This document shows, piece by piece, positions 4,514-48,035 of a stretch of DNA of 50,825 nucleotides. The notes beneath the pieces were generated by a model, which saw only the letters and a list, made by a program, of their open reading frames with translations, was not told the origin of the DNA and did no database searches. Source of the DNA: a virus. Each line of letters starts with the position of its first letter. Position 1 is the first letter of the stretch. The DNA lies in the IMG/VR virus record IMGVR_UViG_3300036780_000409, positions 1 through 50,825 of that record. One strand, written 5' to 3'. The translations under genes were made by a program, and so were the position numbers.

Positions 4514-4534
4514 GCGGTCAAAAGGAATAGAACC

Positions 4535-24350: not shown

Positions 24351-24413
24351 AATATGCAATCAGTGAAATTGCTGATTTTTAGTCAGGTCCCTGCCGTACA
24401 GTCCATTTCGTAT

Positions 24414-25297: not shown

Positions 25298-26689
25298 ATG
25301 TGGGGTCGTCGCAAACTCGCATTGCTCGCACTTGCTTTCCTGTGTGGCAGTGCTGAATTCCTCATAATTGCGCCTCCGCACAGCAATGCGGATCAAGGTC
25401 CACTTTTACTCGGGGTGGGTGGGGCCTCCGGTTGCAGCCCAGCCGCCGGCCACACTTACTCGACTACTTTCCCCGCGACGGAAAATCCCATCTCGGAATG
25501 CAGCTCGTGGCTGAATGGCGCGTTGAACGGCACTGACTGGTCCAACGTGCGCACCACCACGAACTTTGCATTCGGCACCGAGAATCCGCAAAGCGGAGTA
25601 GACGACGATTCCACGGCGACGATTGTTGGCACGTGGGGCGGCAATCAACAAGTTGTCGGGACGGTCGTCGCGCCCACTACCAGCGACACCATCCAGCAGG
25701 AAGTGGAGCTGCGGTTACTGACCACGATCACGTCGGGCACGATTACCGGCTACGAGGCGGACTATATCGGTTTCACAACGACCGCTGCCGATTGCGGCGT
25801 GACGGTGCAGCGCTGGAATGGCGCGCTAAACAGCTTCACCTCGCTGGCGGGTGGAGTAGGTGGCAGCCAAACTTGCCTGCATACCGGAGACATCGTTCGC
25901 GCGGTGGTTATCGGCGGAAAATTCACCACCTACATCAACGACGTGATCGCGGCGACCGGCACCGACTCGACCTTCACCACGGGCAAGCCGGGGATGGGGA
26001 TGTATCTGGAGGCGTCCTCGGGAGGCGCGAACACTTTCGGCTTCAGCGCGTGGCGCGCGAGCGACAATCCCATCGCCTACGTGCAGTCCGGGTCCAACGA
26101 TACGAGCTCGTCGGGAACCACGGCAGCCATAACCAACATCCCCGCCGCAACCACCACCGGGGATTTGATGGCCTGCATGGGCTACTGGAACTCGACCACG
26201 CTTACCGCTTCGGTTGCCGACAGCACCAACGGCACGTACACGGCCATCGGCACACCGACGAGCGGAGCTGGGGCACTTTCGGCTTATCGGGCGCAGATGT
26301 TTTATAAAAGCGGCATCACGGGCTTTGCCACAACGGTTCATCCCACGCTGACCACTTCGGGGACCACTAGCGATCGAGGCTTGGCCTGCCACGAGGCGCG
26401 CGGCGTAACCACGCTCGATCAATCCCCGGCAGTCAAGGCAGGATCGGGCGCAACGGCGACCTCGACGGCCACGAGCACCACCACGGCAGTCGATGAGTAT
26501 GCAGCGGGATTTGCCGTATTTGGCAATACCGGCAGCGGCATAACCTCGCCGTGGGTAGAACGGGAGAGCACTAATTTCGGCGCGAATACCACGGGGGATT
26601 TCGAGCCGTCGAAAGAAGAAATCGTGCAGTTTTCGGCTCCGCAAAGCGGGTCCAGCAATTATCTCGCAGGAGTGGCGACGTTTAAGTGA
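25298..26689 (+). CDS. secreted LamG/ConA-like beta protein
   Basis: A 463-residue protein with a typical signal peptide (MWGRRKLALLALAFLCGSAE..., cleavage likely near residues 30-33 around SNA-DQG). After it, about 45-255 resembles a concanavalin A/LamG-type jelly roll (TFPATENPISECSSW, EADYIGFTTTAADCGVTVQR, KFTTYINDVIAATG, GKPGMGMYLEA). About 256-463 is a second beta domain with many T, S and G residues. Such folds bind glycans. A signal peptide is odd inside a virion gene cluster. It may be exported from the infected cell, or the leader may be an entry or assembly feature. Confidence 0.6.
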   Translation: MWGRRKLALLALAFLCGSAEFLIIAPPHSNADQGPLLLGVGGASGCSPAAGHTYSTTFPATENPISECSSWLNGALNGTDWSNVRTTTNFAFGTENPQSGVDDDSTATIVGTWGGNQQVVGTVVAPTTSDTIQQEVELRLLTTITSGTITGYEADYIGFTTTAADCGVTVQRWNGALNSFTSLAGGVGGSQTCLHTGDIVRAVVIGGKFTTYINDVIAATGTDSTFTTGKPGMGMYLEASSGGANTFGFSAWRASDNPIAYVQSGSNDTSSSGTTAAITNIPAATTTGDLMACMGYWNSTTLTASVADSTNGTYTAIGTPTSGAGALSAYRAQMFYKSGITGFATTVHPTLTTSGTTSDRGLACHEARGVTTLDQSPAVKAGSGATATSTATSTTTAVDEYAAGFAVFGNTGSGITSPWVERESTNFGANTTGDFEPSKEEIVQFSAPQSGSSNYLAGVATFK

Positions 26690-26709
26690 AGCGCTACATA
26701 GGAGAGAAT

Positions 26710-27138
26710 ATGCGTAACCCTTTCAAGTACTCCATCGTTGCTATCGCCACAATTCTAATGGTCGCTTTCTATGGGATGCGCCAACCGTTTCCAGTTCACG
26801 CGCAGCAATCCTCGTCCGGGTATGCAATGTCCGCCTTCGATCTGAGCGCAACTGGCGCGACAAATATAAAAGGTAGCGGAGGGAATGTCTTCGGCTGGTA
26901 CGGATACAATCCGAACGCTTCGGCCTGCTTTCTGCAATTTTACAATTCCGCGACTCCGACACTCGGAACGGGTGCGCTTCACCCGTTCGGAGTTCCGGCC
27001 GGCGCGGCCTTCAATGCGGCTCCGGGAAGTTTGGCCTTCTTCAATTTGAGCGCGGCGATATCGACCGGCGAAACGACGACGGCTACGGGCGGCACGGCGT
27101 GCGCTAGCGCGATGGTTATCACGATTCTCTACCAGTAA
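26710..27138 (+). CDS. secreted small protein
   Basis: A 142-residue protein. A GTG at 26686 overlaps the previous stop, but GGAGAG at about 26701 is well placed for the ATG at 26710, which also gives a clean signal peptide (MRNPFKYSIVAIATILMVAF..., VHAQQ cleavage near residue 31). The mature part has an FDLSATGATNIKGSGGNVFG start, a YNPNASACFLQFYNSATP segment and a C-terminal CASAMVITILYQ, a beta-sandwich pattern seen in phage virion proteins of unknown role. It is the second signal-peptide gene in the cassette. Confidence 0.6.
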   Translation: MRNPFKYSIVAIATILMVAFYGMRQPFPVHAQQSSSGYAMSAFDLSATGATNIKGSGGNVFGWYGYNPNASACFLQFYNSATPTLGTGALHPFGVPAGAAFNAAPGSLAFFNLSAAISTGETTTATGGTACASAMVITILYQ

Positions 27139-27143
27139 AAATC

Positions 27144-28259
27144 ATGGCTTATCTCGACGACGATTCGGCATGGTGGTCAGGGCTTCAGCATTGCGCTGCC
27201 GTCGTAGCGCTGGCAGCGGCTTCCGTTGTCGCGCCCGTGCAAGCCATTCAAGTTGCCGATCAGCCGCAAGATGAACCCATTCCGCCATCAACGTTCCATC
27301 TTGACGAGGATCTCTATCAACCACCTGCCGCCTGGATCGTCCCGGTTGAATATCCGCAACCGTATTCTTTCGAGCAAAACGAATCTGGAAATCTGAGGGG
27401 CCATCCCGACGAAGACTATTGGCAAAATACTGCGGCACCGCAAGAGGCAACTCTAGAATATCCGCAGCAATTTAGCTTCGAGCAAAACGAAACCGCAGGA
27501 TCGTTGCGTGGGCAGCCGGATGAAGATTTCTGGATACCGCGGGCGCAGCCTGCAATTCCAAACGTAGCGCCCTGGCCGTTCAGCTTCGATGCGGGAGAAA
27601 TTGCCTTCGCCTCGGCACCAAGCTTTATTCCCGCCGAGGGCTTTTGGAGACCGTCCCCACCACCAGGATCCTATTGGAATTGCCGGCCATTTTCGGAAGA
27701 TGGCTCGTTCGTCACTTCGGCCGCTCCGCCGTTCGCGCCCGAAGAAGCCTTCTGGGAAATAGCCAATCAGTCTGCATCCGCAAACCTCTACCCGCAGCCG
27801 TGGCTCTTCGACACGCAGGAAGCGGCAGGCGATCTATTCGGCTTGTCCGATGGCGACGCATGGAGCGCGCCGCTGCCGATGGCGCAATATCAGGCGCCGC
27901 TCGTATTTCGCGATGAGGACGTGCTGTCGCATGCTCCGGTCGAAGGGGATTTCTGGTCTATCGCGCCCAGGCCGGCACAATTGCCATTCTCCCCTCTCTA
28001 CCTGCCGGACGGCGGCCTATTCGAATTCACCCCTCCGGGGAACCTGCACGTTGACGAGGATGCATGGATCAATCCGGTAGCGTCGGCTTCTGGATGGGCG
28101 AACTATATTCCAACGTTCTCGGAAGCGGATTGGGTGAGAGCGTACGGTCCGATTTCCATTCTCGGCGCCAACACAATTCCGGCGCTTGCGATATTGGACG
28201 CCAGCGCGGTTCCGGCAATGGCGATTCTCGGAGCTTCGGTTGTGCCGAAAGGATGGTGA
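27144..28259 (+). CDS. acidic-aromatic tandem-repeat protein
   Basis: A 371-residue protein with an N-terminal hydrophobic stretch (13-35) and eight degenerate repeats of about 31-38 residues. Each ends in an acidic-aromatic box: DEDLY 54-58, PDEDYW 88-93, PDEDFW 125-130, PAEGFW 163-168, PEEAFW 199-204, SDGDAW 235-240, VEGDFW 266-271 and VDEDAW 303-308. The repeats at about 70-93 and 106-130 are nearly identical (YSFEQNE..., LRGxPDED). The C-terminus has three short I-L-(G/D)-A-x-x-x-P units (338-370). I do not recognise the family. Its place in the secreted-protein cassette suggests a surface or virion role. Confidence 0.65.
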   Translation: MAYLDDDSAWWSGLQHCAAVVALAAASVVAPVQAIQVADQPQDEPIPPSTFHLDEDLYQPPAAWIVPVEYPQPYSFEQNESGNLRGHPDEDYWQNTAAPQEATLEYPQQFSFEQNETAGSLRGQPDEDFWIPRAQPAIPNVAPWPFSFDAGEIAFASAPSFIPAEGFWRPSPPPGSYWNCRPFSEDGSFVTSAAPPFAPEEAFWEIANQSASANLYPQPWLFDTQEAAGDLFGLSDGDAWSAPLPMAQYQAPLVFRDEDVLSHAPVEGDFWSIAPRPAQLPFSPLYLPDGGLFEFTPPGNLHVDEDAWINPVASASGWANYIPTFSEADWVRAYGPISILGANTIPALAILDASAVPAMAILGASVVPKGW

Positions 28260-28262
28260 AAA

Positions 28263-28661
28263 ATGCCGCGCGTATTGCTGACTTTTTTGATTAACAATTC
28301 GGAATTTGAAGGCAGCTCCGATCAGGACTTTCAGATCGGACCGGTTGCGACGGGCCTATCGCTGCTCAACGGACCTCCGCTCGCCTACGTCAACGATGCC
28401 AGCGGGATCGCCACGCTCTTTGATATCTGCGGGAATCCAGTGCCCGGCGCCGAGAATATTTCGCTGGCATACGAGGCGGGAAGCGGCGGCCTTTACGTCG
28501 GCACGATCGTCGGCGCGAGCTTCAATCCTCCGAACATTGGCTTCGGATACACGCTCGTGGTATCTCTCGAATCACCCTCGCAGGGAAACCGTCAGGCTTC
28601 CTTTCCGGCGCAAGTCGTGGCAAGTACGCAACCGGAATGTGCGCTCGCCGTCGACGGGTAA
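28263..28661 (+). CDS. hypothetical beta-sandwich protein
   Basis: A 132-residue protein starting three bases after the repeat protein, which ends in TGA. It begins PRVLLTFLINNSEFEGSSDQ and continues with strands separated by glycine turns (ENISLAYEAGSGGLYVGTIV, GFGYTLVVSLE), an Ig-like or beta-sandwich pattern. No signal peptide is present. It is the last gene of the cassette before the right 46-bp repeat, and no family is recognised. Confidence 0.55.
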   Translation: MPRVLLTFLINNSEFEGSSDQDFQIGPVATGLSLLNGPPLAYVNDASGIATLFDICGNPVPGAENISLAYEAGSGGLYVGTIVGASFNPPNIGFGYTLVVSLESPSQGNRQASFPAQVVASTQPECALAVDG

Positions 28662-28670
28662 TCCGTGAGG

Positions 28671-28716
28671 TTGCCCGTCATTTGACGTAAAAGTACCGGA
28701 ATCGCTCCACAAAATC
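28671..28716 (+). repeat. 46-bp direct repeat, right copy
   Basis: Exactly identical to 24305-24350, including the CGTCATTTGACG palindrome (28676-28687). On the minus strand it also carries the first bases of the RHH gene (ATGACGGGCAA), but the frame does not continue as that gene, so it is a copied regulatory segment. The leader and TATATG that follow are homologous to those at the left copy. Confidence 0.9.
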
Positions 28717-28795
28717 CTAAAGCCATCCCTTGATTCCCCTATTTTTGCTACAGGATGCACGGTAGGGTGCGTTTTGTATATGCCCGCTACCGCAG

Positions 28796-30076
28796 ATGAG
28801 TCAACCCGCCCACGACGCCGCGTTAGCGAACCGTCGGTACGACGAAAAGACGGGGCGCATGAACATTATGCGCTCGCGGATTTCCAAGGCGACGGTCAAT
28901 CCCTACTACGGACACGAGATTCCCGAGGCGAATACTCTCGGCCTCGATCCCAACCGAATTTACTATCTGCTGCGCGATCCGGAAGAGCTGGAAAAAGCGG
29001 CTCCATCCTTCGCACGGGTCCCGCTGATGTTCAAGCACATCGCCGTGAGCGCGGACGATCCGCAACAGGATCAGATCGCCGGGACGATCGGCTCGGACGT
29101 GGAGTTCGAATATCCGTATTTGATTTCCGATCTGAGCGTGTGGGACGCCAAGGCCATCGCGGGGATCGAAACGGATACGGTCCGCGAACTCTCCTGCTCC
29201 TATCACTACACGGCGGACATGACGCCAGGCGTTTTCGAAGGGACGAGCTTCGACGGGGTGATGCGGAATATTTCCGGCAATCACGTCGCATTGGTCCAAT
29301 CGGGACGGGCGGGTTCGGACGTAATGGCCGCGGACAGCGGACTGGAGATTAACGTGAAAGAAACCAGATTCGGAAAAGCCCTTTACGCGATGCTCTGTGC
29401 GATCTCCCCGAAACTGGCGAAGGACGCCGCGCTGAAACCGCTCGTGATCGCAGCCGATCCCAAAACATTCGACGCGAAATCGCTCGAGCCGAAATTGCTC
29501 GCGATGGATGCGGATATGCCCGGACCTCAGACGTTGGCTGCAATGGCAGCGGCCAAGGATGCCTCCGAAGAGGAACCGGTCGCGAAAGAGCCGGAAAAAA
29601 CCGCCAAGGATTGCAGCTATTGCAACGCCAAAGACGGCCAGCCGCATGCCGATGGATGCAAGACCGCGGCGGACGAAAAGGCAGCCTCCGAAAAAGCCGC
29701 GGCAGACAAGGCCGCGAAAGACGCCGAGATGAAGGCCGCGGAAGAAAAAAAGAACAAAGAAGCGGAGGATGCGCGCATGAAGACCGCGATGGATTCATTC
29801 AAGATCGAACTCCGGGAAGCGGAGGAAGCGCGCCGGGCCGTACGTCCGGTCGTCGGGGATGTACTGATGGCGCACGATTCGGCAGGAGATATCTACGCCT
29901 TTGCGCTCGATCAGATGAAGGTCGAACACAAGGACGTGACGGGCGTACCGGCCTTGCGCGCGCTATTCAATCTGGCTTCGTCCTCCAAGGCACCCGCGCC
30001 GCGGCCGGCCTTCGACGGGATCGCGGACATGGACAAAAAGTTCCCCAACGCTTCGCGCGAAATTCGAGTTCTGTAG
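28796..30076 (+). CDS. DUF2213 head protease fused to scaffold-like tail
   Basis: A 426-residue protein. The N-terminal part (about 10-185) is DUF2213: DEKTGRMNIM, SRISKATVNPYYGHEIP, LGLDPNRIYYLLRDPEEL, a VSADDPQQDQIAGTIG block, DLSVWDAKAIAGIE, ELSCSYHYTADMTPGVFEG and RNISGNHVALVQSGRAGSDV. DUF2213 proteins lie before capsid genes and are thought to be maturation proteases. The C-terminal part has a CSYCN...C knuckle and a long K/A/E coiled coil (about 290-330), as in scaffolds. An alternative ATG at 28780 is in another frame. Confidence 0.8.
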   Translation: MSQPAHDAALANRRYDEKTGRMNIMRSRISKATVNPYYGHEIPEANTLGLDPNRIYYLLRDPEELEKAAPSFARVPLMFKHIAVSADDPQQDQIAGTIGSDVEFEYPYLISDLSVWDAKAIAGIETDTVRELSCSYHYTADMTPGVFEGTSFDGVMRNISGNHVALVQSGRAGSDVMAADSGLEINVKETRFGKALYAMLCAISPKLAKDAALKPLVIAADPKTFDAKSLEPKLLAMDADMPGPQTLAAMAAAKDASEEEPVAKEPEKTAKDCSYCNAKDGQPHADGCKTAADEKAASEKAAADKAAKDAEMKAAEEKKNKEAEDARMKTAMDSFKIELREAEEARRAVRPVVGDVLMAHDSAGDIYAFALDQMKVEHKDVTGVPALRALFNLASSSKAPAPRPAFDGIADMDKKFPNASREIRVL

Positions 30077-30125
30077 TTCGCTGTCAGCAACGCGGCTGGA
30101 TTTGGAAACAGAGGAGAGACGATAA

Positions 30126-31088
30126 ATGGCCCCGACACCGCCAAGCGGAAATAGCATCGGCAGCTTTCAGACGAGCGTCAACAATTTCAACCCGATCGGA
30201 GCCGAGGGTGATTTCGCCAGCGCAAATCCACGCGCGACAGCTCTGACGACAAGTATCGATGCGAACGGTAATCAGACGAGTGGTCTGATCGCAGGGCCGC
30301 AAGGCGTCATCATCGGTAACTTTGCTTGGATCGAAGCCGATGGCGTCACCGTCAACAGTTTTGCTACGGGCAACGTCAAGCCGACCGGCTTCGTTCACCG
30401 CGATCAGCAAGGCTTGAACACGGCCTATTTGCAGGCTGCGGGCACATTCATTCCTCCCGGGTTTCCCGTCACGCTGATGACCGAAGGCGATTTCTTCGAT
30501 CTCATCGTGGGTGGTTCGGCAGCCGTTTACGGCTCCGCCTGCTACGCGCGCTATTCGGACGGCGCTCTGTTTGTTGGCTCTTTGCCTACGGGCGGAAGTT
30601 CAACCGGTTCGATCGGTGCAACCTTCACCGGAGCTGGCAGCGGAACTAATCTTACCGCCAGCGCTGTGACTGGATTGATTTCGATAGGCGACACGATCTC
30701 TGGATCCGGAATTACAGCCGGAACTACGATCCTATCCCAGACGAGCGGAACAACTGGAAGCGCGGGCGTCTACGTGACCAGCGCGGCCACAACCGTAGCC
30801 GGAACGACGACGAGCTTCGGGATCGTTCTCGACATCACCGCGGTCAGCAGCGGGACGCTCGCGCCCGGCGATTCGGTCACCGGAACGAACGTGCCGAGCG
30901 GCGCAACGATTGCATCGCAAATCAGCGGCGCTATCGGAGGAATCGGAATTTACACGATCGATATTCCGGCCACGCAATACGTGGCTTCGACCACAATAAC
31001 GATTGTCGCCGGGATTCTGACGGGCTGGGTAGCGAAGACTGCCGCAGCAGTTGGGACACTCACAAAAATTTCAAGCTGGGGCGTTTAG
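30126..31088 (+). CDS. Gp24-like structural cement protein with repeat insert
   Basis: A 320-residue capsid-stabilising protein. The cement core shows in GAEGDFASANPRATAL, SGLIAGPQGVIIGNFAW, KPTGFVHRDQQGLNTAYLQA and EGDFFDLIVGGSAAVYGSACY. After about residue 160 there is a large insert of two copies of a G/T/S-rich beta repeat (about 65 residues each; GDTISGSGITAGTTI and GDSVTGTNVPSGATI mark the same position), then a short return to the core (GWVAKTAAAVG). Such repeats usually protrude from the shell. A GAGGAGAG ribosome site lies upstream. Confidence 0.75.
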   Translation: MAPTPPSGNSIGSFQTSVNNFNPIGAEGDFASANPRATALTTSIDANGNQTSGLIAGPQGVIIGNFAWIEADGVTVNSFATGNVKPTGFVHRDQQGLNTAYLQAAGTFIPPGFPVTLMTEGDFFDLIVGGSAAVYGSACYARYSDGALFVGSLPTGGSSTGSIGATFTGAGSGTNLTASAVTGLISIGDTISGSGITAGTTILSQTSGTTGSAGVYVTSAATTVAGTTTSFGIVLDITAVSSGTLAPGDSVTGTNVPSGATIASQISGAIGGIGIYTIDIPATQYVASTTITIVAGILTGWVAKTAAAVGTLTKISSWGV

Positions 31089-31125
31089 GGCTTAGCGCAA
31101 GCCTATTCTTTCGGAGGCAAACAAG

Positions 31126-32187
31126 ATGGACCCGATCCTACAGGCTATTCAGCAGAAGTGGGGCGTTACCTTTGAGGGAATCAGGGGGATCAGCCCACGT
31201 CTACAGCTTGACGAAAAAGAGCGCGGCGGGCGGCTTGCGATGGACGCGCAGCCGGAACTTATCACCATTTCGAACTCCGGCATTCCTGCGTTCCTTTCGA
31301 CGTACATCGACCCGAAGATCATCGAGATTCTCGTCCGTCCGATGAAGGCCACGGAGATTGTCGGGGAGGAAACGAAAAAGGGCGATTGGACGCTGGAAAC
31401 GGCAATGTTCCCGGTAGTCGAATCGACCGGTGAGGTTAGTTCTTACGGTGATTACTCCCAAACAGGTGTGGCGAATGCAAACGTCAACTGGGTATCAAGA
31501 CAGTCATATGTATACCAGGTGATTACGCAGTGGGGCGAACGCGAACTCGAAAAGATGGGCCTCGCGCGCATCGACTGGGCGAATCGCATGAATATCGCTT
31601 CCGTCCTCACGCTAAACCTATTTCAAAACAAGTCATATTTCTTCGGAGTAAACGGTCTCGCCAACTACGGCCTGCTCAACGATCCGACACTTCCCGCAGC
31701 CATTACGCCGCTTGTGTATGAGACCGTCACCACGTGGGCCAACAAGGCGGCGCTATCGGACGGCACTGGACCACTCGCCATTTTGAACGACGTTAGGGCG
31801 CTCTACGAACAACTTGTTTCGCAGGCAAACGGTAACATCGATCTCGAAACGGATTCGCCGATGACTCTTGCAATGTCGCCTGGGTCGGAGGTCTATCTGA
31901 CGGCCTCGACAATCTACAACATGAGCGCCAAAAATATGATTGAGAAGAACTTCCCCCGCATCAAGTTCAAAACGGCGCCGGAATATGCGACCGCTTCCGG
32001 AAATCTGGTGCAGCTCATAGCCGATGAAATGCTGGGGCAGCGCACGGCCACCACGGCCTTTACCGAGAAGTTGCGCGCGCACCCGATCATCGTGAAGTCT
32101 TCGAGCTTCGAGCAGAAAAAGAGCCAGGGAACCTGGGGCTGCATCATCTTCCGCCCGTTCCTGATCGCTCAAATGCTCGGCGTGTAA
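31126..32187 (+). CDS. major capsid protein (DUF2184-like)
   Basis: A 353-residue HK97-fold capsid protein placed after the protease and cement genes. Recognisable: GIPAFLSTYIDPKIIEILVR (about residues 52-71), a KKGDWTLETAMFPVVESTG block, a DYSQTGVANANVNWVSRQSY stretch, FFGVNGLANYGLLNDPTLP (self-reference of the family), LAMSPGSEVYLT and KSQGTWGCIIFRPFLIAQML. This matches DUF2184-type capsid proteins of myophages. It forms the icosahedral shell. A GGAGGC ribosome site precedes the ATG. Confidence 0.85.
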   Translation: MDPILQAIQQKWGVTFEGIRGISPRLQLDEKERGGRLAMDAQPELITISNSGIPAFLSTYIDPKIIEILVRPMKATEIVGEETKKGDWTLETAMFPVVESTGEVSSYGDYSQTGVANANVNWVSRQSYVYQVITQWGERELEKMGLARIDWANRMNIASVLTLNLFQNKSYFFGVNGLANYGLLNDPTLPAAITPLVYETVTTWANKAALSDGTGPLAILNDVRALYEQLVSQANGNIDLETDSPMTLAMSPGSEVYLTASTIYNMSAKNMIEKNFPRIKFKTAPEYATASGNLVQLIADEMLGQRTATTAFTEKLRAHPIIVKSSSFEQKKSQGTWGCIIFRPFLIAQMLGV

Positions 32188-32221
32188 GCGAAAAATTCCG
32201 AGAGGGGATGAGGGAAAACCA

Positions 32222-32563
32222 ATGCCAGGAAAAGAAACGGTGGTGATCGGCTGCAGGTTGCCACAGGGATTAATTCTTACACTTCCGAAGAAGACCGCTC
32301 GGGTGATGCTTGCGGGTCCGAAACTTGTGATTGTCGAGGGCAAGAAACTCAGTTCGAGCTTCGCCACGACCCAGGTAGATGCCGACTTCTGGACCACATG
32401 GAAAGCCGCTTATGCGGATAGCCCATTTCTTTCCGCGCGAACCATTTTCGAGGCAAAGACGGAAACCGAAGCGGCCGCGAAGGGAAAAGAGTTAGCGAAG
32501 GAAAAAACCGGCTTCGAACAAATGCCCCAAGAGGCGATGGGCGTCGAGAAGGCAGCGGTCTAA
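32222..32563 (+). CDS. conserved phage protein after capsid
   Basis: A 113-residue protein common directly after the capsid gene in phages of this type; the TQVDADFWTTWKAAYAD segment is the recognisable part. The N-terminus (VIGCRLPQGLILTL) reads as a beta domain, and the C-terminus is helical and K/E/A-rich. The function is unknown, possibly head decoration or connector. GAGAGGGGATGAGGG lies upstream of the ATG. Confidence 0.6.
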   Translation: MPGKETVVIGCRLPQGLILTLPKKTARVMLAGPKLVIVEGKKLSSSFATTQVDADFWTTWKAAYADSPFLSARTIFEAKTETEAAAKGKELAKEKTGFEQMPQEAMGVEKAAV

Positions 32564-32577
32564 CTAAGGAACTTAAC

Positions 32578-32874
32578 TTGAGCGATGCACATGAACGTCA
32601 CGTTTGGCATTTGGGCCGACAGGAATACGAATCTCTCCTGAAGCGGATTTCTGATCTTGAGGCCAAAATCCAGCCGATGCATGACGAATACAAGGAATAC
32701 GAAGAGCGCGAATCGCGTCGAGTGCAAGCGCTTTCGGTTTCTGATCCTATTCCGCAGAGCGCGCCATCCGCACCAGCGCCGGAAAGCCCAGTTGGGGATG
32801 CCGAAATTACAGCAGCCAACGATTCCGATGATTCGAGCGAAGGAACGGCGGGGGATTCTTCGGAGAATGCCTGA
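32578..32874 (+). CDS. hypothetical coiled-coil protein with disordered tail
   Basis: A 98-residue protein from TTG at 32578, with TAAGGAAC upstream; the nearby ATGs are in other frames. The first 50 residues include a short coiled coil (YESLLKRISDLEAKIQPM), and the second half is low-complexity S, P, A, D and E. Its TGA overlaps the ATG of the connector gene. No known function. Confidence 0.5.
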   Translation: MSDAHERHVWHLGRQEYESLLKRISDLEAKIQPMHDEYKEYEERESRRVQALSVSDPIPQSAPSAPAPESPVGDAEITAANDSDDSSEGTAGDSSENA

Positions 32875-33350
32875 TGTCGACATGTCCGAATCCAGCCAAT
32901 TGCGTCGGAGTCGCGGTCTTCGACGCGCCGCTGTTTCTCGCCCGCTATCCTGAATTCGGCAAGGTCCCGACGCCTACCCTTCAAGCTTACTTTTACGAAG
33001 CACAGTTGTATCTGAATAACACGCCACGAAGCATCGTGCGGGGCGTTTTCAAGCGCCTGATCCTGCTGAATATGCTCACCGCGCACATCGCGTTTCTGGG
33101 AGGCGCGTTGACCGCTGACGGACAACCGCGGCCAGTGGGACGGGTAAGCCAAGCCGCAGAAGGCAGTGTAAGCGCGGCATTCGAATATACCGAACCGACT
33201 CCGGGAAGCGGCCCGTGGTTCGCGCAATCGCAGTACGGCGCGGCGTTTTGGCAAGCCACCACGTGCTATCGCGGCGCGTTTTATTCTCCGCAACCGACGC
33301 GCGTCGAAGGATTCACCGGAACGGGGCTGCTGCAGAGGTTCACGGTATGA
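32874..33350 (+). CDS. head-tail connector (DUF4054-like)
   Basis: A 158-residue head-completion protein. The family pattern is visible: FDAPLFLARYPEFGKVPTPT, YFYEAQLYLNNTPRSIV, LLNMLTAHIAFLGG, a GRVSQAAEGSVSAAFEYT block, then QSQYGAAFWQATTCYRG. It is the adaptor ring that binds under the portal (equivalent to gp6/gp15-type connectors). It overlaps both neighbours by one to four bases, and lies before tail-completion genes, as expected. Confidence 0.8.
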   Translation: MSTCPNPANCVGVAVFDAPLFLARYPEFGKVPTPTLQAYFYEAQLYLNNTPRSIVRGVFKRLILLNMLTAHIAFLGGALTADGQPRPVGRVSQAAEGSVSAAFEYTEPTPGSGPWFAQSQYGAAFWQATTCYRGAFYSPQPTRVEGFTGTGLLQRFTV

Positions 33351-36441: not shown

Positions 36442-36454
36442 TTAAGGAGCTTTC

Positions 36455-36919: not shown

Positions 36920-36927
36920 GAGGCACC

Positions 36928-40109: not shown

Positions 40110-41067
40110 ATCCTTCGCCAATCCCAAAAAACTGAAGTTCGTTTTCACGCTCGCGATCGGCTTGCCCAATCGCTTTCTGGCCGGAGGCAGCCAGCAATTT
40201 CTGACGCTCACGATTCAAGGCCTTCGCGCTTCGGTGCATGTGGACAACGGCGGCGGAAACATGATGCCGCAATTGCAGGCTCAGATTTACGGGATGACCG
40301 CGAGCGATATGAACGCGGTAACCACGATCAATTGGGCCACGCAAGGGATCGCCGCACTCGCGAACGTCCTTCCCAACATCGTCGCGGTTTACGCCGTCGA
40401 GGGCCCCGGCCAGGAAGTTCTAGTTTTTTCCGGGAACATCGTCAACGCCTGGGGCATTTACACCGGCATGCCGGATGTTTTTCTGACGGTCGAAGCGAGG
40501 GGATTTTATTTCGCGCAGCTCACTCCCTCGCAACGCACCACGATCAAAACGAATACCGACATCGCGACGGTGATGGAGCAGCTCGCCAACAATCTCGGGA
40601 TGATTTTCGAGAATAACGGAGTCACCGGAACGGTGCGCGCGGGGCAGACGCTCAGCGGAAGCTGGCTCGATCAGGCTAATCAAATGGCGGATGCCTACCG
40701 CGATCGATTCACCCTGTACAGAGACACTTCGACGGCTTCATTGAGCACCATCGGCACTCTGGCGATAACGCCTCCGAACGTTGCTCGTCCCGGTGGAACG
40801 CCGGTGGTAAATCCCCGAAGCGGACTGATCGGCTATCCCGCTTTCAACGGGTACGGTGGGATTTTGTTCGACACGTACTTCAATCCGGCGATCAAGTTTG
40901 GCGGGCAGGTCGAGATTCAATCGGCGATTCCGAAGGCGAGCGGGAAGGCCTACGTCAGTTCTTTGTCGCACGATCTGGAAAGTCAAACACCGGGCGGCCG
41001 GTGGCGATCCACCGTCACCGCCTATAGCACCCAAGGCGCGGCGGCGCTGGCCGCGGCGGGAGGCTAG
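40093..41067 (+). CDS. baseplate hub protein (Mu gp44/gpD-like)
   Basis: A 324-residue hub protein. Marks are FLTLTIQGLRASVHVDNGGG, MTASDMNAVTTINWATQGIA, VFSGNIVNAWGIYTGMPDVF, TNTDIATVMEQLANNLGMIF and, near the end, YVSSLSHDLESQTPGGRWRS, all common to gp44/gpD-type hubs of Mu-like phages. It forms the trimer that connects the tube to the spike. Order (plug, hub, spike, wedge) supports the call. Confidence 0.8.
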   Translation: MASQPKSFANPKKLKFVFTLAIGLPNRFLAGGSQQFLTLTIQGLRASVHVDNGGGNMMPQLQAQIYGMTASDMNAVTTINWATQGIAALANVLPNIVAVYAVEGPGQEVLVFSGNIVNAWGIYTGMPDVFLTVEARGFYFAQLTPSQRTTIKTNTDIATVMEQLANNLGMIFENNGVTGTVRAGQTLSGSWLDQANQMADAYRDRFTLYRDTSTASLSTIGTLAITPPNVARPGGTPVVNPRSGLIGYPAFNGYGGILFDTYFNPAIKFGGQVEIQSAIPKASGKAYVSSLSHDLESQTPGGRWRSTVTAYSTQGAAALAAAGG

Positions 41068-41070
41068 AGA

Positions 41071-41718
41071 ATGTCTTCGACCTCAACGCCGGGAGTTCTG
41101 CAGCCACAAAACGTGTGGGGCGAATACAACAATCTCATTTTTGCGATACGCCAGTTGATGGCTAAGATGCAGACCGCAACGCTCGTCCAGGTTGTCTCCT
41201 GCACCAACGATGGCGGGGTTTCCGCCGTCGGTTCCGTCGACGTGCTGATTCTGGTCAATCAAATCAACGGGAACGGGCAGGGAATCAGCGAAGGCCAGCT
41301 CGTCAATCTGCCGTACATGCGCATGCAGGGCGGCGCGAACGCCGTCATTCTCGACCCGCAGCCGGGCGACATCGGGATAGCGGTCTTTTGCAGCCGCGAT
41401 ATTTCCACCGTCGTGGCCACGAAGGCGCAAGCAAATCCGGCCACGTTCCGCATGTACGATTTTTCGGATGGACTCTACCTTGGCGGCGTTCTGAATGGAG
41501 CGCCGACTTCCTTCGTGCAGTTCGTCTCCGGAGGAATCAATGTCACCTCTCCCAATCAAATTACGCTCCAAGCGCCGACCGTGACCGTGGAAGGGAATTT
41601 GGTGGTGACGGGCACCACGCAAGGCAGCGATGACGGAACGTTCGAGGGAATTAGCGTGAAGACGCACATTCACAGCGGCGTTACAACCGGCGGCGGGAAC
41701 ACGGGGATTCCGGTATGA
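41071..41718 (+). CDS. baseplate spike protein with HxH tip
   Basis: A 215-residue spike. The N-terminal OB-like domain has TATLVQVVSCTNDGGVSAVG, VNLPYMRMQGGANAVILDPQ and PGDIGIAVFCSRDISTV. A C-terminal beta-helix-like part ends in KTHIHSGVTTGGGNTGIPV; the H-I-H motif binds iron at the tip of many phage spikes. It pierces the outer membrane during contraction. Its start is three bases after the hub gene. Confidence 0.82.
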   Translation: MSSTSTPGVLQPQNVWGEYNNLIFAIRQLMAKMQTATLVQVVSCTNDGGVSAVGSVDVLILVNQINGNGQGISEGQLVNLPYMRMQGGANAVILDPQPGDIGIAVFCSRDISTVVATKAQANPATFRMYDFSDGLYLGGVLNGAPTSFVQFVSGGINVTSPNQITLQAPTVTVEGNLVVTGTTQGSDDGTFEGISVKTHIHSGVTTGGGNTGIPV

Positions 41719-42074
41719 GCGCCCTTTCGACGCTGCTTCTCGACGCGACCGCATGGGATCTCGTCCTTGATTCCAGTGGGAATATCGCGCTGGCGGAACC
41801 TCCCTACGCCACGGCACAAGACGTGGCATCGGCGATCAAGCTTTTCCTGGCCGAGCTTTGGTTCAACACGACGCAAGGTGTCCCGTATTGGAGTGAGGTT
41901 CTGGGGCGTGCGCCGTCGCTTTCGCAACTGGCGCAATCGATGAATCAGGCCGCACTTTCGGTTCCTGGGGTTGTGGCGGCGAATACGATCATTACCGGAT
42001 TCGTGGATCGCCAGGTGACCGGGCAAGTGCAGTTCACGACGGCGGATGGAACCGAAACCACGGTGACTTTTTAA
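41715..42074 (+). CDS. baseplate wedge protein (gp25/gpW-like)
   Basis: A 119-residue protein with the pattern typical of Mu gp46/gp25-like wedges: LLLDATAWDLVLDSSGNIAL, TAQDVASAIKLFLAELWFNT, TQGVPYWSEVLG and a late IITGFVDRQVTGQVQFTTAD. It attaches sheath to the baseplate. ATGA and TAATGA overlaps join it to its neighbours. Confidence 0.78.
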   Translation: MSALSTLLLDATAWDLVLDSSGNIALAEPPYATAQDVASAIKLFLAELWFNTTQGVPYWSEVLGRAPSLSQLAQSMNQAALSVPGVVAANTIITGFVDRQVTGQVQFTTADGTETTVTF

Positions 42075-43294
42075 TGAGCAGCGTACCGCCAATTCAGTTT
42101 ACGACCGAAGGCGTGATCCTTCCGACCGACGCGGCCATTCTTACCGGCGTCCAGACCGATATCGACACCGCTTTCGGTGGCGGCGTGAATCCGTCGCTCT
42201 CTACTCCGCAAGGGCAACTCGCCACGAGCGAAGCGGCCATCGTCGCGGAAAAGAATTCGGAAATCGCCTACGTCGCGAACCAAGTCGATCCGCAATATGC
42301 GAGCGGGCGCTTTCAGGACGCGATTGGCCGCATTTATTTCATGACGCGGCAGCCCGCGCAACCCACGGTCGTCATCTGCACGCTGGGAGGAATCTCCGGA
42401 ACTGTGATTGCGGCCGGCGCCCTGGCGCTCGACACTTCGGGAAACACCTACCAATTGCTCGATGCGGTCACCATCGGCGGCGGCGGAACGGTTTCGGGAG
42501 AATTCGCAAACCTGGTTACCGGGCCGATCCCTTGCCCTACCGGAACCCTTACGCAGATTTATCAAGCGATTTCAGGCTGGGATACGATCACCAATCCGGG
42601 CGACGGAACCTTGGGAAATTTAGTGGAGAGTTCTCAAGCGTTCGAGCATCGGCGGCAGGCCTCGGTCGCAGCGAACAGCCACGGAACCACGGACGCCATT
42701 TTAGCGGCCGTCTTTGCGGTTCCCGGCGTCCTCAATTGCTACGTGATCGACAATCCCTCGGGAAACACGGTGAACTATGGATCGACAAATTATCCGCTGG
42801 CCCCGCACTCGATCTACGTCGCGGTCGTTGGCGGCGAAGCGGCCGCCATCGCCCAAGCGATCTGGCAATTCAAAGACGCCGGATGTTCCTATCAAAGCGC
42901 AGCCGGGGAAGGCAGCGTCGAAACCGTCACCATCTTCGACACGAACTATCCCAGTCCGCAACCGGCCTACCCGGTAAGCTTCATCATTCCTGGAACCGTG
43001 GCCATTTATTTCGCGGTCACGCTCACGTCCCTGCCGAGCGGCCTCGCGGCTTTAATTCAGGCCGCGATCATCGCGCAATTCAACGGCGAGAACGATAACA
43101 CTCCAGCGGGAATCGCCTCGCTCATCACCGCAAGCAGTTATTACGCCGCAGTCCTCACGGCCCTTGCGGGCAGCGGGGCCACACTCGTCAGCATTTTCGT
43201 GGGCATCGCGCCTTCTCCCAGCGGATTCGATACGCAAATAGGCATCGATCAGGAGCCTACGCTGAGCGCCGGAAATATTTCGGTGAGCACATGA
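42074..43294 (+). CDS. baseplate J-like protein (Mu gp47-like)
   Basis: A 406-residue wedge protein of the gpJ/gp47 family. It begins VPPIQFTTEGVILPTDAAIL, and has DTAFGGGVNPSLSTPQGQLA, YASGRFQDAIGRIYFMTRQP (the strongly conserved G-x-x-Q-D-x-x-x-x-I), VESSQAFEHRRQASVAANSH and VPGVLNCYVIDNPSGNTVNY, all typical of the family. It is a structural part of the baseplate arms. Confidence 0.85.
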   Translation: MSSVPPIQFTTEGVILPTDAAILTGVQTDIDTAFGGGVNPSLSTPQGQLATSEAAIVAEKNSEIAYVANQVDPQYASGRFQDAIGRIYFMTRQPAQPTVVICTLGGISGTVIAAGALALDTSGNTYQLLDAVTIGGGGTVSGEFANLVTGPIPCPTGTLTQIYQAISGWDTITNPGDGTLGNLVESSQAFEHRRQASVAANSHGTTDAILAAVFAVPGVLNCYVIDNPSGNTVNYGSTNYPLAPHSIYVAVVGGEAAAIAQAIWQFKDAGCSYQSAAGEGSVETVTIFDTNYPSPQPAYPVSFIIPGTVAIYFAVTLTSLPSGLAALIQAAIIAQFNGENDNTPAGIASLITASSYYAAVLTALAGSGATLVSIFVGIAPSPSGFDTQIGIDQEPTLSAGNISVST

Positions 43295-44154
43295 CGCCGC
43301 TCGTCCTTCAGGATTCAACCGGACTGCTTTGGACGATATCGGTCAATGCCTGGGGCCAAATCGTCGCCACGGGCGGAGCGACTGGCATTGCCGTAGGTGT
43401 TTACATCAACGATTCCAGCGGCGCCTCGTACCTGCTTTCGTTCAACCCCACGGTGCGGAACATCCAGACTTCGCGCGTGTCTGTCGCCAGAAATTTCCCA
43501 ACATCCATTGCCATCGATGACTCATGGCTTATCGGGGTCGACACGTCCGGCCTGGTAGTGATTTCGCCATCCTCGCAGCTCGCACTGTGGCAGCAAACCG
43601 TGATTTCGCAGTACGCCAACAGTCCCACGCTGCTCGCGCTGATCGAGGATTTCAATTCGGCGGTCGATCCGAGCGGCGACATCGACAATTTTTATTCGTG
43701 GATTTGGAATATCGACACCGCGCAAGGATTCGGCTTGGATATCTGGGGCCGGATCGTGGGCGTGGGCCGCGCGATTCAGACGAGTCCGCCTACAATTTTG
43801 ACCGACTCTCAATTTCGCTCGCTGATTCTGCTGAAGGCGTTGAGCAATATTTCGATTGCGACCTCTCCGGCCATCAACTCGCTCTTGCGGAATTGGATGG
43901 CCGGGCGCGGCAAGGCTTACGTGAACGACCTCGGCGAGATGGAAATTCGCTACTCGTTCGAATTCGACCTGGAGCCGTTCGAAATTCTCATCATCACCGA
44001 GAGCGGTATTTTCCTGAGGCCTGCCGGAGTAGGCGGCTGGGCCGTAGCGACGACCTATCCGGTTTTCGGATTCAAAGAAATGGGAACGACTTGGGCAGCG
44101 CCATTCGATCAGGAGCCATTTATGCCAGCGGGAAATCCTTATGCTGTTAGCTAA
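43291..44154 (+). CDS. baseplate/tail protein (DUF2612-like)
   Basis: A 287-residue protein with a later half typical of DUF2612: NSPTLLALIEDFNSAVDPSG, FYSWIWNIDTAQGFGLDIWG, RIVGVGRAI and TDSQFRSLILLKALSNISIA, PAINSLLRNWMAGRGKAYVN. The first 100 residues form an extra beta domain. It follows gpJ, where the P2 gpI-type tail fiber adaptor belongs. The start overlaps gpJ by 4 bases. Confidence 0.78.
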   Translation: MTPLVLQDSTGLLWTISVNAWGQIVATGGATGIAVGVYINDSSGASYLLSFNPTVRNIQTSRVSVARNFPTSIAIDDSWLIGVDTSGLVVISPSSQLALWQQTVISQYANSPTLLALIEDFNSAVDPSGDIDNFYSWIWNIDTAQGFGLDIWGRIVGVGRAIQTSPPTILTDSQFRSLILLKALSNISIATSPAINSLLRNWMAGRGKAYVNDLGEMEIRYSFEFDLEPFEILIITESGIFLRPAGVGGWAVATTYPVFGFKEMGTTWAAPFDQEPFMPAGNPYAVS

Positions 44155-45043
44155 CGCGCCAGCCCAACTCGTTCTTCCGTGGGGCAACGGAGATTCTTCG
44201 AAGACGAACCCGATTCCGGTTCCCTCGCAAATCAGCATCACGCCGGGAGCGGCGAGCTGGACCGATGGATTCCCGCCGCTCTGTGCAACCGCAGTTACAT
44301 CTGGCGGCGTCCCGCCGACGAAGGCCGACATGAACGGTGGTCTGTTCCAGATGTCCGCCGTAGACGTTTGGATTTGCGCGGGCGGCGGATTCCCCTATTC
44401 GAGCGCATTCAGCACGGCCATTGGCGGATACCCGAAGGGCGCGCGCGTCCTGATGGCGAGCGGCCTGAGCTACTGGCGATCGATTGTCGACAACAATACA
44501 ACCGATCCCGATACGGGCGGAGCGGGATGGGTTGGCGAGCCGGGAACGGAGAGCGTAAACACAACTGCGGTCACGGTGAACGGCGGAAGCCTTGCGCTGC
44601 AAAACCTGATGTCCTATGCGATTCCCGCCGGAAGTTTGAATGTTGCCAGAAAAGTAAAGCGGATCACTATGTCTGGAAACGGGAACATCGCAGGGGCGGT
44701 CAACTTCAATTTAGGTTTTGCTCTTCCAGGCGGTGGCGGAACGGGACTCCCATGGAACGTCGCAAATTCTTCAGGCTCCATAGATTTATCGTGGCGAATA
44801 GTGGTGGAAATTACGACGCTAACGACAGGGGCAAGTGGATCAGTGCTCGTTTCGTCTGCGTTGCAAGTCGGGCAGGGCGCTCCGAACCTATCGGTAGCCA
44901 ACGGTGAGGCTTATGTTTTCATAGGGACCGGCATCGATTTAACCAGTTCCGTAACTCTGCAGGTCCAAGCCGAATTCGCCTCCGGTGCCGGCAGCGGCGA
45001 CACCGTAATTCAAGAGGGCATGATCGTGGAGGCTCTAAATTGA
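44141..45043 (+). CDS. tail fiber protein
   Basis: A 300-residue protein. The N-terminal phrase IPVPSQISITPGAASWTDGF, then GGVPPTKADMNGGLFQM, is a typical anchor of tail fibers to the baseplate. The middle and C-terminus are G/S/T-rich beta domains (SYAIPAGSLNVARKVKRITM; VTLQVQAEFASGAGSGDTVI), which could bind a host surface. It overlaps the preceding gene by 14 bases. It probably supplies receptor binding together with the spike that follows. Confidence 0.7.
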   Translation: MLLANAPAQLVLPWGNGDSSKTNPIPVPSQISITPGAASWTDGFPPLCATAVTSGGVPPTKADMNGGLFQMSAVDVWICAGGGFPYSSAFSTAIGGYPKGARVLMASGLSYWRSIVDNNTTDPDTGGAGWVGEPGTESVNTTAVTVNGGSLALQNLMSYAIPAGSLNVARKVKRITMSGNGNIAGAVNFNLGFALPGGGGTGLPWNVANSSGSIDLSWRIVVEITTLTTGASGSVLVSSALQVGQGAPNLSVANGEAYVFIGTGIDLTSSVTLQVQAEFASGAGSGDTVIQEGMIVEALN

Positions 45044-47553
45044 AACAGCTAACCATCTGGGATCGCCGTCTTCTCGCCATTCTCTATCTGGTATTTCTCG
45101 CAGCCGTCGTCCAATGGGCGCTCGGGCCGCACGACGCGATGGCCGCGCAAACGCACACGTTCCCCGCGACGGATACGAACAATACCTTCACGGGCACCAA
45201 TACGTTCGGTCCAATTGTTATCAACGGTCCTTGCACCGGGGCGGTCGGCTGCGGAGGGCAAATCGTCACCACGATTCCCATTGCCGGTTCTTACGCAAGC
45301 AAAGGCACGACCGTCTCGGTAACGAACGGCGCGAATGCGAATGACTGCACGGCGGGCGGAGGGACCACGCCGGTATTCTGCCAGTACAGCGGCTCGGCGT
45401 GGGCGGCGGTGGCGAGTTCGGTTGCAGGGAATCCAGGCGGGTCGGATACCAACATTCAGTGTAATAAATCGGGAGTTTTCAGTGGCAATTGCTTGCTTTC
45501 GGTAAACAGCAGTACGTCTCCGACGCAGTTAAATATTCTCGGAGACGTAGCTTTCGCCGGGCCCCGGCCTTACATCGATGTGACCGCACCGCCGTATAAT
45601 TGCGATCCAAACAGCGGCGCCGATTGCACTGCGGGAATCCAATTAGCGATCAACGATGCGTGCGCCTATTCAGGTAACGCGGCCCCGGCGATTTATTTTC
45701 CATTTGGCTTTGACGCCTACAAGGTAAGCCAGCCGCAAGCACCGGATAACAGCCCTATTTTTGACTTGCCTGCAAACTGTGCCGGTTTGCACCCTATCGG
45801 CGAAGGCTTCAGCAAGCAAGCCCCGCAGTTTTCGCGCTCGCCACAGGCCGTTATTCAAGTTGGTCATTGTGGCACTCCCGGTACGGGGCCAGTGTTCAAG
45901 GTGGATACCAACGCCAACGCGATTACTTTCGAGAATCTAGCGATTGAGGGTTGCAATCAAGGCGTAGAAGTTACGGGCGCGTCTGGCACAACTTTCAAGA
46001 ATACCTGCGTGTCCAACTTCGGCTCCGGCGGCACCGGCCTCGCCGCGAATACGGCTCTCTATCTCCTCGATTCGGTTCAGTTCCTGGATTTCTACGGCGG
46101 CTGCATCACGGCTGGCGGGCCTACGGCCGTGCTGATGCAGGACGATAGTTCCGGGACCCCCATCGCCAATATAAACTTTTACGGCACGCGCATGGCCGGG
46201 GACGGCATGGAGTACCTGACCACTGCGTTAGGGCATCCGACCGGCGGCGGCGGGGACATCACGCTCGATCACATCGTAGACGAAGATTGCAACGCGCCGC
46301 TGTTTTCGGTGGTGGATTCCAGCGGCAGCCAGAATATGGGAGGTTTTGGCAACCTGATACTGACAAATCCGGTGATGGCGGATTGCGGCGCAACCTATCC
46401 CATCTTGCAGTTGAACATGCCGGGGGACTATTTGTTTGGCGTGGATATTTCCTTGCCGCAAGGCAGTAATAGCGCCGCTCAGGCAATTCAGGCTTTGTCT
46501 GTTGGCTCTATAGGATTCATCCATATTTCGGGATGTGGTGGTTTTTGTACCACGGCGGCGGTGGATGGCAGCGGCAACCCACTCGCGGGTGTCGTAGAGG
46601 ACAATCAATTTGGACACGACTACCAGGTGAGCGCTTACGCGGGCCGCCTGCGCACCGACACGATTGGATTTGTGGGTGATCCGCTGCGCATTTTTCCATC
46701 GGGCGTGAATCCATCCTTCGCCACGCTGGGCCTCGATTTGACCGAGGGCTTGCTTTTCAACCAGGCGCAAGGCTTGGGGTATTCCGGTGGAGTGGCACAA
46801 TTCGCGCCGAACAGCGTAGGGATTGAATTTCCCACGGTGCTGCCTCCTGCGAGCGTAGCGGCTGCACCAACCACCGGCGGAACGCTGCCTAACGGCACCT
46901 ACTACGTCGCCGTCTACGGTGAAATCGGCGGTAGCGGTTGCAGCGGGGGAACTACAGAATCGGCCCCGTCGTCTCCGGTTGTGCCAATCACTCTTTCCGG
47001 CTCGAACGACGCAATCAGTGTGACCTGGAGTTTGCCCACGCCAAACATGTCCTCTGATTTTTGCGCAGTGGCTTCGTCCGGGCCGATACCGGGTGCCGAT
47101 GGAAACATGCCCACGGTACACGTATCCAGCAGTTCCACCAATGCCACGATTATCACGAACAACGCGCTGAATCCTAATCCGATCCCCGTCGCACCGATGA
47201 CCGAGTATCACCGCTACACCTACAACGCGTTCGGCGTTAACACCACTTCTCCCGTCCCCGGAACGCTCACGGACAATGGTGGTTTCGTCGCCCAGAAAAA
47301 TACTTACTCTTCCGCGCACACGCTGCTGGTTTCCGAGCACACCGTTTTCGTGACCGGCACAACCACGATCACGGTTTTGCATGCGCTGCCGACGTCGGGC
47401 CTCGCGAGCGAATGGCTCGTAATCAACTCGGGGACGAACACCGTCACGCTCGCTTGCGACAGCGGAAATATCAACGGCGGAGCGACGGTGACGCTAGCCG
47501 CGAACGCGAGCGGCATTGTAACCGCAGATGGCACCAATTGCTGGGAGCACTAA
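45040..47553 (+). CDS. tail spike with pectate-lyase-like beta helix and N-terminal hydrophobic leader
   Basis: An 837-residue protein. The first 36 residues look like a signal sequence or anchor (MKQLTIWDRRLLAILYLVFLA..., DAMAAQTHTF). About 175-600 has repeating short strands with G, N and V turns, as in right-handed beta helices of tail spikes (FENLAIEGCNQGVEVTGASG, LDSVQFLDFYGGCITAGGPT). About 615-710 is a fibronectin-III-like module (APSSPVVPITLSGSNDAISV), and the C-terminus has a trimer-like end. It likely binds or cuts surface sugars. A leader in a spike is unusual. Confidence 0.7.
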   Translation: MKQLTIWDRRLLAILYLVFLAAVVQWALGPHDAMAAQTHTFPATDTNNTFTGTNTFGPIVINGPCTGAVGCGGQIVTTIPIAGSYASKGTTVSVTNGANANDCTAGGGTTPVFCQYSGSAWAAVASSVAGNPGGSDTNIQCNKSGVFSGNCLLSVNSSTSPTQLNILGDVAFAGPRPYIDVTAPPYNCDPNSGADCTAGIQLAINDACAYSGNAAPAIYFPFGFDAYKVSQPQAPDNSPIFDLPANCAGLHPIGEGFSKQAPQFSRSPQAVIQVGHCGTPGTGPVFKVDTNANAITFENLAIEGCNQGVEVTGASGTTFKNTCVSNFGSGGTGLAANTALYLLDSVQFLDFYGGCITAGGPTAVLMQDDSSGTPIANINFYGTRMAGDGMEYLTTALGHPTGGGGDITLDHIVDEDCNAPLFSVVDSSGSQNMGGFGNLILTNPVMADCGATYPILQLNMPGDYLFGVDISLPQGSNSAAQAIQALSVGSIGFIHISGCGGFCTTAAVDGSGNPLAGVVEDNQFGHDYQVSAYAGRLRTDTIGFVGDPLRIFPSGVNPSFATLGLDLTEGLLFNQAQGLGYSGGVAQFAPNSVGIEFPTVLPPASVAAAPTTGGTLPNGTYYVAVYGEIGGSGCSGGTTESAPSSPVVPITLSGSNDAISVTWSLPTPNMSSDFCAVASSGPIPGADGNMPTVHVSSSSTNATIITNNALNPNPIPVAPMTEYHRYTYNAFGVNTTSPVPGTLTDNGGFVAQKNTYSSAHTLLVSEHTVFVTGTTTITVLHALPTSGLASEWLVINSGTNTVTLACDSGNINGGATVTLAANASGIVTADGTNCWEH

Positions 47554-47555
47554 AG

Positions 47556-48035
47556 ATGAAACGCCTTTTTCTGGTTCTGACTCTCGCGGTACTTTCAGCC
47601 CCGCCAATCTCGGCCGACAATCTCGCGCGCAAGTTCGTCCACTCCGTTTCTCATCACAAAGAGACTTTCGTCCGCAGCGGCATTCTCACCGCCTACATTT
47701 CCGTCGATGTTTGGTCGACCAATCGCTGCCAAAGAATCAGCGCGTACTGCATCGAGACGAATCCCGTTCTCGGGCAGCATCCCTCGCCGCAAGCGACCTG
47801 GGGATACGCGCTCGGAATCGATGGCGTTCTCATCGCGCTCGATGCCGTTGCCGCGCATTACGCGCCATCGCGCTTGGGCAGGCAAATTCCGTGGGCCTGG
47901 ACCATTCCCATCGCGGCGTACGAGACGGTGAACGTGCGCTCGAATATCGAAGTGACCGGACGGCTGGAGAACCTGAATCAGATTTTGAATCGGCCGACGC
48001 ACAGGCCGGGGAATCTGGAATGGCGAAACCGCTAG
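47556..48035 (+). CDS. membrane/secreted protein with signal peptide
   Basis: A 159-residue protein from the ATG at 47556, three bases past the spike stop. Residues 1-20 form a signal sequence (MKRLFLVLTLAVLSAPPISA). The middle has CQRISAYCIETNPVLGQHPS with two cysteines, and YALGIDGVLIALDAVAAHYA is a membrane span. The final part is basic. I know no family; it may be a lysis or membrane protein. Confidence 0.55.
   Translation: MKRLFLVLTLAVLSAPPISADNLARKFVHSVSHHKETFVRSGILTAYISVDVWSTNRCQRISAYCIETNPVLGQHPSPQATWGYALGIDGVLIALDAVAAHYAPSRLGRQIPWAWTIPIAAYETVNVRSNIEVTGRLENLNQILNRPTHRPGNLEWRNR

Follow-up and report, generated by a model that had tools for sequence, protein, structure and literature searches.

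Predicted Sec signal peptides on proteins encoded in the virion gene territory of an uncultured contractile-tailed phage, including one in the tailspike slot

Gene content of the window

The window, meaning the whole stretch of DNA analysed here, is the 50,825-nt IMG/VR virus record IMGVR_UViG_3300036780_000409. Its plus strand encodes, in this order, a terminase, a portal protein, a MuF-like head protein, a head protease, the major capsid protein, sheath, tape measure, baseplate and fibre, and it represents an uncultured contractile-tailed phage of bacteria. Among the 40 listed of 513 records, its capsid protein shares 41-55% identity with the capsid proteins of Obolenskvirus, Bcep-type and Aeromonas phage 56-type phages; with those of uncultured relatives it shares up to 80%. 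The features discussed below lie in a head-side cassette and where the tail genes end:

23012-23857, plus strand: MuF-like head morphogenesis gene, left edge of the cassette (PHROG E 3.2e-75)
25298-26689, plus strand: P1, 463 aa, predicted cut after residue 19 (scorer) or 32 (by eye), 6 Cys past residue 32
26710-27138, plus strand: P2, 142 aa, predicted signal peptide 1-31 (FPVHA↓QQ, the arrow marking the cut), 2 Cys in the mature part
27144-28259, plus strand: P3, 371 aa, leader unsupported
28796-30076, plus strand: head maturation protease, right edge of the cassette (PHROG E 3.5e-112), with an internal GTG at 29354
44141-45043, plus strand: short tail-fibre gene, 300 aa, no leader (PHROG tail fibre E 1.1e-32, residues 4-156)
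45028-45032, plus strand: ribosome-binding site GGAGG, 7 nt ahead of TTG 45040
45040-45144, plus strand: predicted P4 signal peptide, residues 1-35, score 8.78, predicted cut after ...HDAMA
45145-47553, plus strand: putative mature P4, 802 aa, in the tailspike slot, with the N-terminal motif QTHTFPATDTNNTFTGTNTF, 22 Cys and a weakly matched beta-helix region
47556-48035, plus strand: P5, 159 aa, predicted signal peptide 1-20 (PPISA↓DN), 2 Cys in the mature part
48199-49077, plus strand: small genes past P4 and P5, two with hydrophobic segments and holin-like by eye

P1, P2, P4 and P5 are encoded in virion gene territory and are putative virion members by position. Tailed phages normally synthesise their virion parts in the cytoplasm and put them together there. 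A sequence-only reading had singled out the leader on the tail spike at 45040 as the oddest of the set, a view that we share.

Signal peptide prediction

Candidate leaders were scored for a basic n-region, a hydrophobic core and the residues at -3 and -1, with weights following the -3,-1 rule. The scorer was checked on 123 genes of E. coli K-12, labelled from gene names and general knowledge, where a cut-off of 6.5, set on these same genes, recovers 22 of 25 signal-peptide proteins together with nine of 30 membrane and none of 68 cytoplasmic proteins. The leaders proposed by the sequence-only reading at 25298, 26710, 45040 and 47556 are borne out by scores of 8.67 (P1), 7.66 (P2), 8.78 (P4) and 8.13 (P5). 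When the first 45 residues of each protein were shuffled 1000 times, the observed score was matched in 0% (P1), 0.3% (P2), 0% (P4) and 0.9% (P5) of the shuffles. All four combine a basic n-region, a hydrophobic core and small residues at -3 and -1, as expected for Sec export and signal peptidase I, while the strongest 19-residue hydrophobic window of their mature parts reaches 1.08-1.44 on the Kyte-Doolittle scale. The weaker leader suggested at 27144 did not hold, as P3 lacks this combination, scores 5.05, is matched in 11% of its shuffles, begins with an acidic stretch (MAYLDDDSAWW) and has no ribosome site. P3 is proline-rich, with repeats around PDEDFW/PDEDYW and no family match.

Other phage genes do occasionally score high. 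Among the 58 other genes of the window four score at least 6.5 and one at least 7.5, and in four isolates 4 of 108 hand-picked virion-territory genes with products of 55 aa or more score at least 6.5. The scorer also yields false positives, namely three unleadered outgroup fibres at 6.5-7.1 and an internal start of the head protease, which reaches up to 8.4 in about 20 loci.

Start sites point the same way as the scores. P2 is preceded by AGGAG (spacing 5, ATG 26710), P5 by GGAG (spacing 8, ATG 47556) and P1 by a weak AAGG (spacing 9, ATG 25298), and in none of the four proteins does a later in-frame start with a ribosome site occur within about 110 codons. The sequence-only reading would have given up the leaders if the true starts lay further downstream and left them untranslated. 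For P4 the one candidate in frame around the end of the leader is ATG 45139, which sits at the predicted cut; it has no ribosome site, in contrast to the GGAGG ahead of TTG 45040. The leaders of P1, P2, P4 and P5 are very probably true Sec signals.

The P4 gene and its position

The start of P4, a gene that closes the run of tail genes, overlaps the end of the fibre gene by 4 nt, and P4 would probably be translationally coupled to it. No promoter of its own was found near P4, promoter and terminator matches being at chance level. The fibre carries the N-terminal domain of other tail fibres (phrog_12796 and others) and is 48-55% identical at its N-terminus to outgroup fibres. No blastp match to this domain was found in P4 or in the corresponding spike of a relative (G002), and cytoplasmic assembly of P4 onto the tail is therefore very unlikely.

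P4 had no match among PHROG families or solved structures, and pattern searches of viral contigs gave no relatives. A search of 50,697 phage records likewise returned no relatives of P1, P2, P4 or P5. Profile matches to Beta_helix (E 0.004) and to a pectate-lyase-like family (E 0.063) are both below the Pfam cut-offs, and residues 179-319 align at 27.7% identity (E 8.7e-4 in a small database) to the beta-helix part of the fibre of an outgroup record (G004), a fibre in which a pectate-lyase-like domain and a Peptidase_S74 chaperone are recognised. Because the profile matches lie below the cut-offs, the reading of P4 as an enzyme rests on its slot and on this weak match. An AlphaFold model of mature P4 was uninformative (mean pLDDT 36). 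From its position and these alignments, P4 is likely a glycan-directed spike.

The slot after the fibre in related phages

The gene following the fibre was read in the window and 12 further records, with starts picked by ribosome site, length and ATG and not by leader score. In the window clade (the window, G001, G002, G003, G014 and G015) fibres are short (259-301 aa) and the next gene has a leader in all six, with scores of 7.39-8.78. In the outgroup records, with fibres of 314-815 aa, none of seven has a leader on the gene next to the fibre and scores are at most 5.26. The contrast gives a Fisher p of 0.0006, kinship being ignored. The slot gene of G001 is without a ribosome site and was located by reading open frames. 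The capsid tree groups nine leadered records with two of unknown state in a single clade (98/99), whose sister clade (100/98) consists of six unleadered records. The outgroup record G011 complicates this simple picture, since some 3.5 kb past its fibre lies a gene for a leadered protein of 474 aa (score 8.96). On the evidence of gene order and leader scores, the window clade appears to have a putatively secreted protein replacing the virion tailspike.

Leadered genes may also follow one another. In the closest relative of the window (G001, locus L084, reverse complement 2850-12372), the fibre is followed by four successive genes of secreted type with products of 1934, 733, 249 and 251 aa, the second of which scores 4.94 and the fourth 5.8. 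In G002 the second leadered gene bears a Laminin_G_3 lectin domain (E 1.3e-17).

Conserved mature N-termini behind divergent leaders

Four spikes of the window clade have a mature N-terminus in common (family A2). Scanning viral contigs for it yielded 16 loci, part of them in records included above, and with the best start chosen by leader and ribosome site all 16 have a leader, scoring at least 7.39. Fifteen of the genes come after a fibre gene, 13 within 6-10 nt and two at about 116-130 nt, and the remaining one comes after another tail-end gene. Among 14 distinct proteins, taken from relatives of the slot rather than from P4's own family, mean identity is 0.32 in the leader and 0.835 in the first 75 mature residues, and conservation is higher in the mature part than in the leader for 90 of 91 pairs. 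Such divergence of the leader beside a conserved mature start is the pattern expected of cleaved signal peptides.

This pattern bears on two alternatives. The first is that the leaders are uncleaved hydrophobic segments serving assembly or entry, which was one of the two roles offered by the sequence-only reading. Cytoplasmic assembly proteins can contain signal-like stretches, as at the internal start of the protease; the A2 leaders, however, keep charge, core and the -3,-1 residues while their sequence varies, although the mature start beside them is strongly conserved, and the mature parts of the leadered proteins are enriched in cysteine. We regard uncleaved segments as very unlikely. The second, the wrong choice of starts discussed above, is contradicted by the relatives as well, since the conserved A2 domain begins, with a Gln, exactly at the predicted cut, and ribosome-site scores reach at least 2.6 at 14 of the 16 leader starts. 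Downstream starts are thus extremely improbable. Of the two roles initially offered, export is the better backed, given leaders kept by chemistry rather than by sequence, cysteine-rich mature parts and a P4 that does not match the fibre domain.

The A2 proteins are laid out as tailspikes are, with a conserved 88-aa mature N-terminus followed by divergent C-termini. An AlphaFold model of the N-terminal domain was uninformative (pLDDT 47). P4 has a motif of its own directly after the leader, QTHTFPATDTNNTFTG (QTHTFPAxDTNN), which was sought as DNA patterns and occurs in six further contigs, found as three and three. A leader stands just ahead of it in six of six, or seven of seven with P4, where L134/L135 and L140/L142 are near-copies. 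In L134 and L135 the motif genes adjoin a head-closure gene (phrog_578), which marks another phage type. Regarding the host, the P4 motif pattern was absent from 398 genomes of one phylum and a profile of the A2 domain had no match in 274 genomes of one class; an acidobacterial host for the phage of the window would be no more than a passing guess.

Cysteine content

The mature leadered proteins of the window contain 6 (P1, counted from residue 33 after the cut by eye), 2 (P2), 22 (P4) and 2 (P5) cysteines, or 2.16% of residues, against 0.70% in the other proteins of the virion region (Fisher p 2.6e-6, or 0.04 without P4). Among relatives, cysteine is likewise higher in leadered spikes than in unleadered fibres and spikes (12 vs 7 proteins, p 0.006). 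The ranges overlap, with 0.58% in the leadered protein of L132 and 1.38% and 1.48% in the unleadered AP22_gp54 and G004 fibre, and in view of the latter two cysteine content alone does not separate the classes. The enrichment fits folding of the mature proteins in an oxidising compartment, as would be expected if they were exported.

Comparison with known systems

In Obolenskvirus, fibre and tailspike genes close the structural module upstream of the lysis genes, and AP22_gp54 is a virion tailspike, a polysaccharide lyase with an N-terminal particle-binding part (both from excerpts of PMC11126041). AP22_gp54 is pectin-lyase-like, lacks a leader and lies directly after the 271-aa fibre gp53. 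P4 occupies the same slot, straight after a short fibre at the end of the tail module and ahead of genes that look holin-like by eye, and both proteins are large. Unlike AP22_gp54, P4 has a leader, and it shows no match to a particle-binding N-terminal domain of the kind that the tailspike has in common with the fibre.

Free polysaccharide-degrading phage enzymes outside the particle, released at lysis, are a described class (excerpts of PMC5380687), to which P4 would be alike in its putative polysaccharide-degrading role. In the text of that source the term 'signal peptide' is absent, whereas in the phages studied here the tailspike slot of a whole clade has a fixed Sec leader. It is this leader, and not the existence of soluble depolymerases freed at lysis, that differs from what is already known.

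A distantly related isolate offers another parallel. BcepNY3gp50, identical in Bcep1 and annotated as tail fibre/tail spike, has a leader (MNMKKILSRVFACAIVLAAFSQFALG↓Q, score 8.7), so the trait exists in cultivable phages. Like P4 it is a leadered protein of the tail module, belonging to a PHROG tail fibre family, but its gene position and sequence are different. A second small leadered protein (BcepNY3gp40, 173 aa; L136, 27406-27927, minus strand) is encoded in the tail module of the Burkholderia phage. Among open-licence PMC texts we found no paper on BcepNY3gp50 and, going by titles and the starts of abstracts, none on signal peptides of tail spikes.

Lom and Bor are envelope morons that use Sec export. 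Together with SAR endolysins and spanin lipoproteins they resemble P4 in the predicted export route, but all of these act in lysis or in the envelope, whereas P4 is a large tail-spike-like protein of the adsorption module. For SAR endolysins, the use of Sec export by phage proteins is described in excerpts of PMC3765740.

A possible role outside the virion

We lean, with limited confidence, towards P1, P2, P4 and P5 being Sec-exported, disulphide-bonded proteins, with P4 acting as a free, glycan-directed spike outside the virion. From the leaders and their start sites, the conservation of a leader in the slot, the cysteine enrichment and the lack of a fibre-domain match we infer a course of events and its timing as follows. 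The leaders would route the four proteins through the Sec translocon of the host and be removed by signal peptidase I, and the mature proteins would form disulphides in the periplasm. P4 may gather there and exit at lysis, or earlier by leakage, and by binding or cutting glycan might clear surface polysaccharide or mask receptors to the benefit of the progeny.

The conserved N-termini and variable C-termini of the A2 proteins speak against a purely free role, since this is the layout of virion-attached spikes. Spikes of this kind might leave the cytoplasm by export, acquire their disulphides as they fold outside it, and dock on finished virions during or after lysis. P4 sits in the slot of a proven virion tailspike, AP22_gp54 (excerpts of PMC11126041), and the leadered BcepNY3gp50 of an isolate is annotated as a tail fibre or spike, both of which would suit docking. 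The lack of a blastp match between the fibre N-terminal domain and either P4 or the G002 spike argues against it, as does the occurrence of the P4 N-terminus in L134/L135, another phage type, which fits poorly with attachment to one kind of baseplate. We consider docking unlikely. Its evolutionary form, in which the clade and, through module exchange, other phage types moved their host-recognition spike from cytoplasmic assembly to the Sec pathway and the periplasm, from where it docks at lysis beside a separate, conventionally assembled fibre, is similarly doubtful; if true, docking after lysis would be the more surprising result.

A leader fixed in the tailspike slot of a clade and found again in other phage types would imply that export of receptor- or polysaccharide-directed proteins is widespread among environmental phages. 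This would matter for the prediction of virion proteins, for phage action on biofilm and soil matrix and for superinfection. The leadered, annotated tail fibre of the Burkholderia phages BcepNY3 and Bcep1 makes the trait testable on isolates.

The head-side cassette and P5

The interval between the MuF-like gene and the protease, which holds P1 and P2, measures 57 to 3,054 nt in relatives with both genes against 4,939 nt in the window. P1 has no family match and, by pattern search, no relative in viral contigs; its one weak match to solved structures (E 0.068) was not used. A resemblance seen by eye between the C-terminal half of P1 and small leadered proteins of L002 and G001 was dropped after hhalign gave a probability of 0.7%. 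P2 shares 42% identity with the C-terminal domain of a leadered protein of 574 aa encoded in L002, where another leadered protein follows. P5 gave no relative in viral contigs by pattern search, and the small genes past it (48199-49077) yielded no useful family match.

The leadered genes could then be morons, that is, cargo unrelated to the tail that alters the host envelope, for example by blocking superinfection, and that lies in virion modules by chance. Variation of the interval from 57 to 4,939 nt with the window included, an antisense leadered gene in it at five loci, the lack of matches of P1, P2 and P5 to tail families, and small leadered genes in the tail modules of the prophages L099, L102 and L106 are all in line with this. 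For P4, a slot and a tight spacing to the fibre gene that are conserved across the clade point away from chance cargo, and promoters were not found near P4 and occur only at chance level in the cassette. As an account of the whole set we hold morons to be possible but rather unlikely, and keep export with P4 as a free spike as the preferred reading. P1 and P2 as cassette genes nevertheless look more like cargo than like tail parts.

The antisense leadered gene occurs in L017, L019, L020 (3002-3553, minus strand), L032 and L072, encodes 164-183 aa with 7 Cys and is a candidate envelope moron. Also in the head cassette of the window, positions 24354-24803 encode a protein of 149 aa that contains 6 Cys and weakly matches a zinc ribbon (E 0.017). 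Between the portal and MuF-like genes, very small leadered genes (72-85 aa) are inserted in L037 (5211-5728), where a lipoprotein-like gene follows, and in L040 (1696-1914).

The in-frame internal start of the head protease (GTG 29354 in the window) has a ribosome site and reads MKMTKLGKALFAALCAASPVLA in relatives, e.g. L045 (8385-9071), with about 20 other loci. It probably yields a separately made scaffold domain whose N-terminus mimics a signal peptide, and a similar nested product is annotated in BcepNY3 as gene13'.
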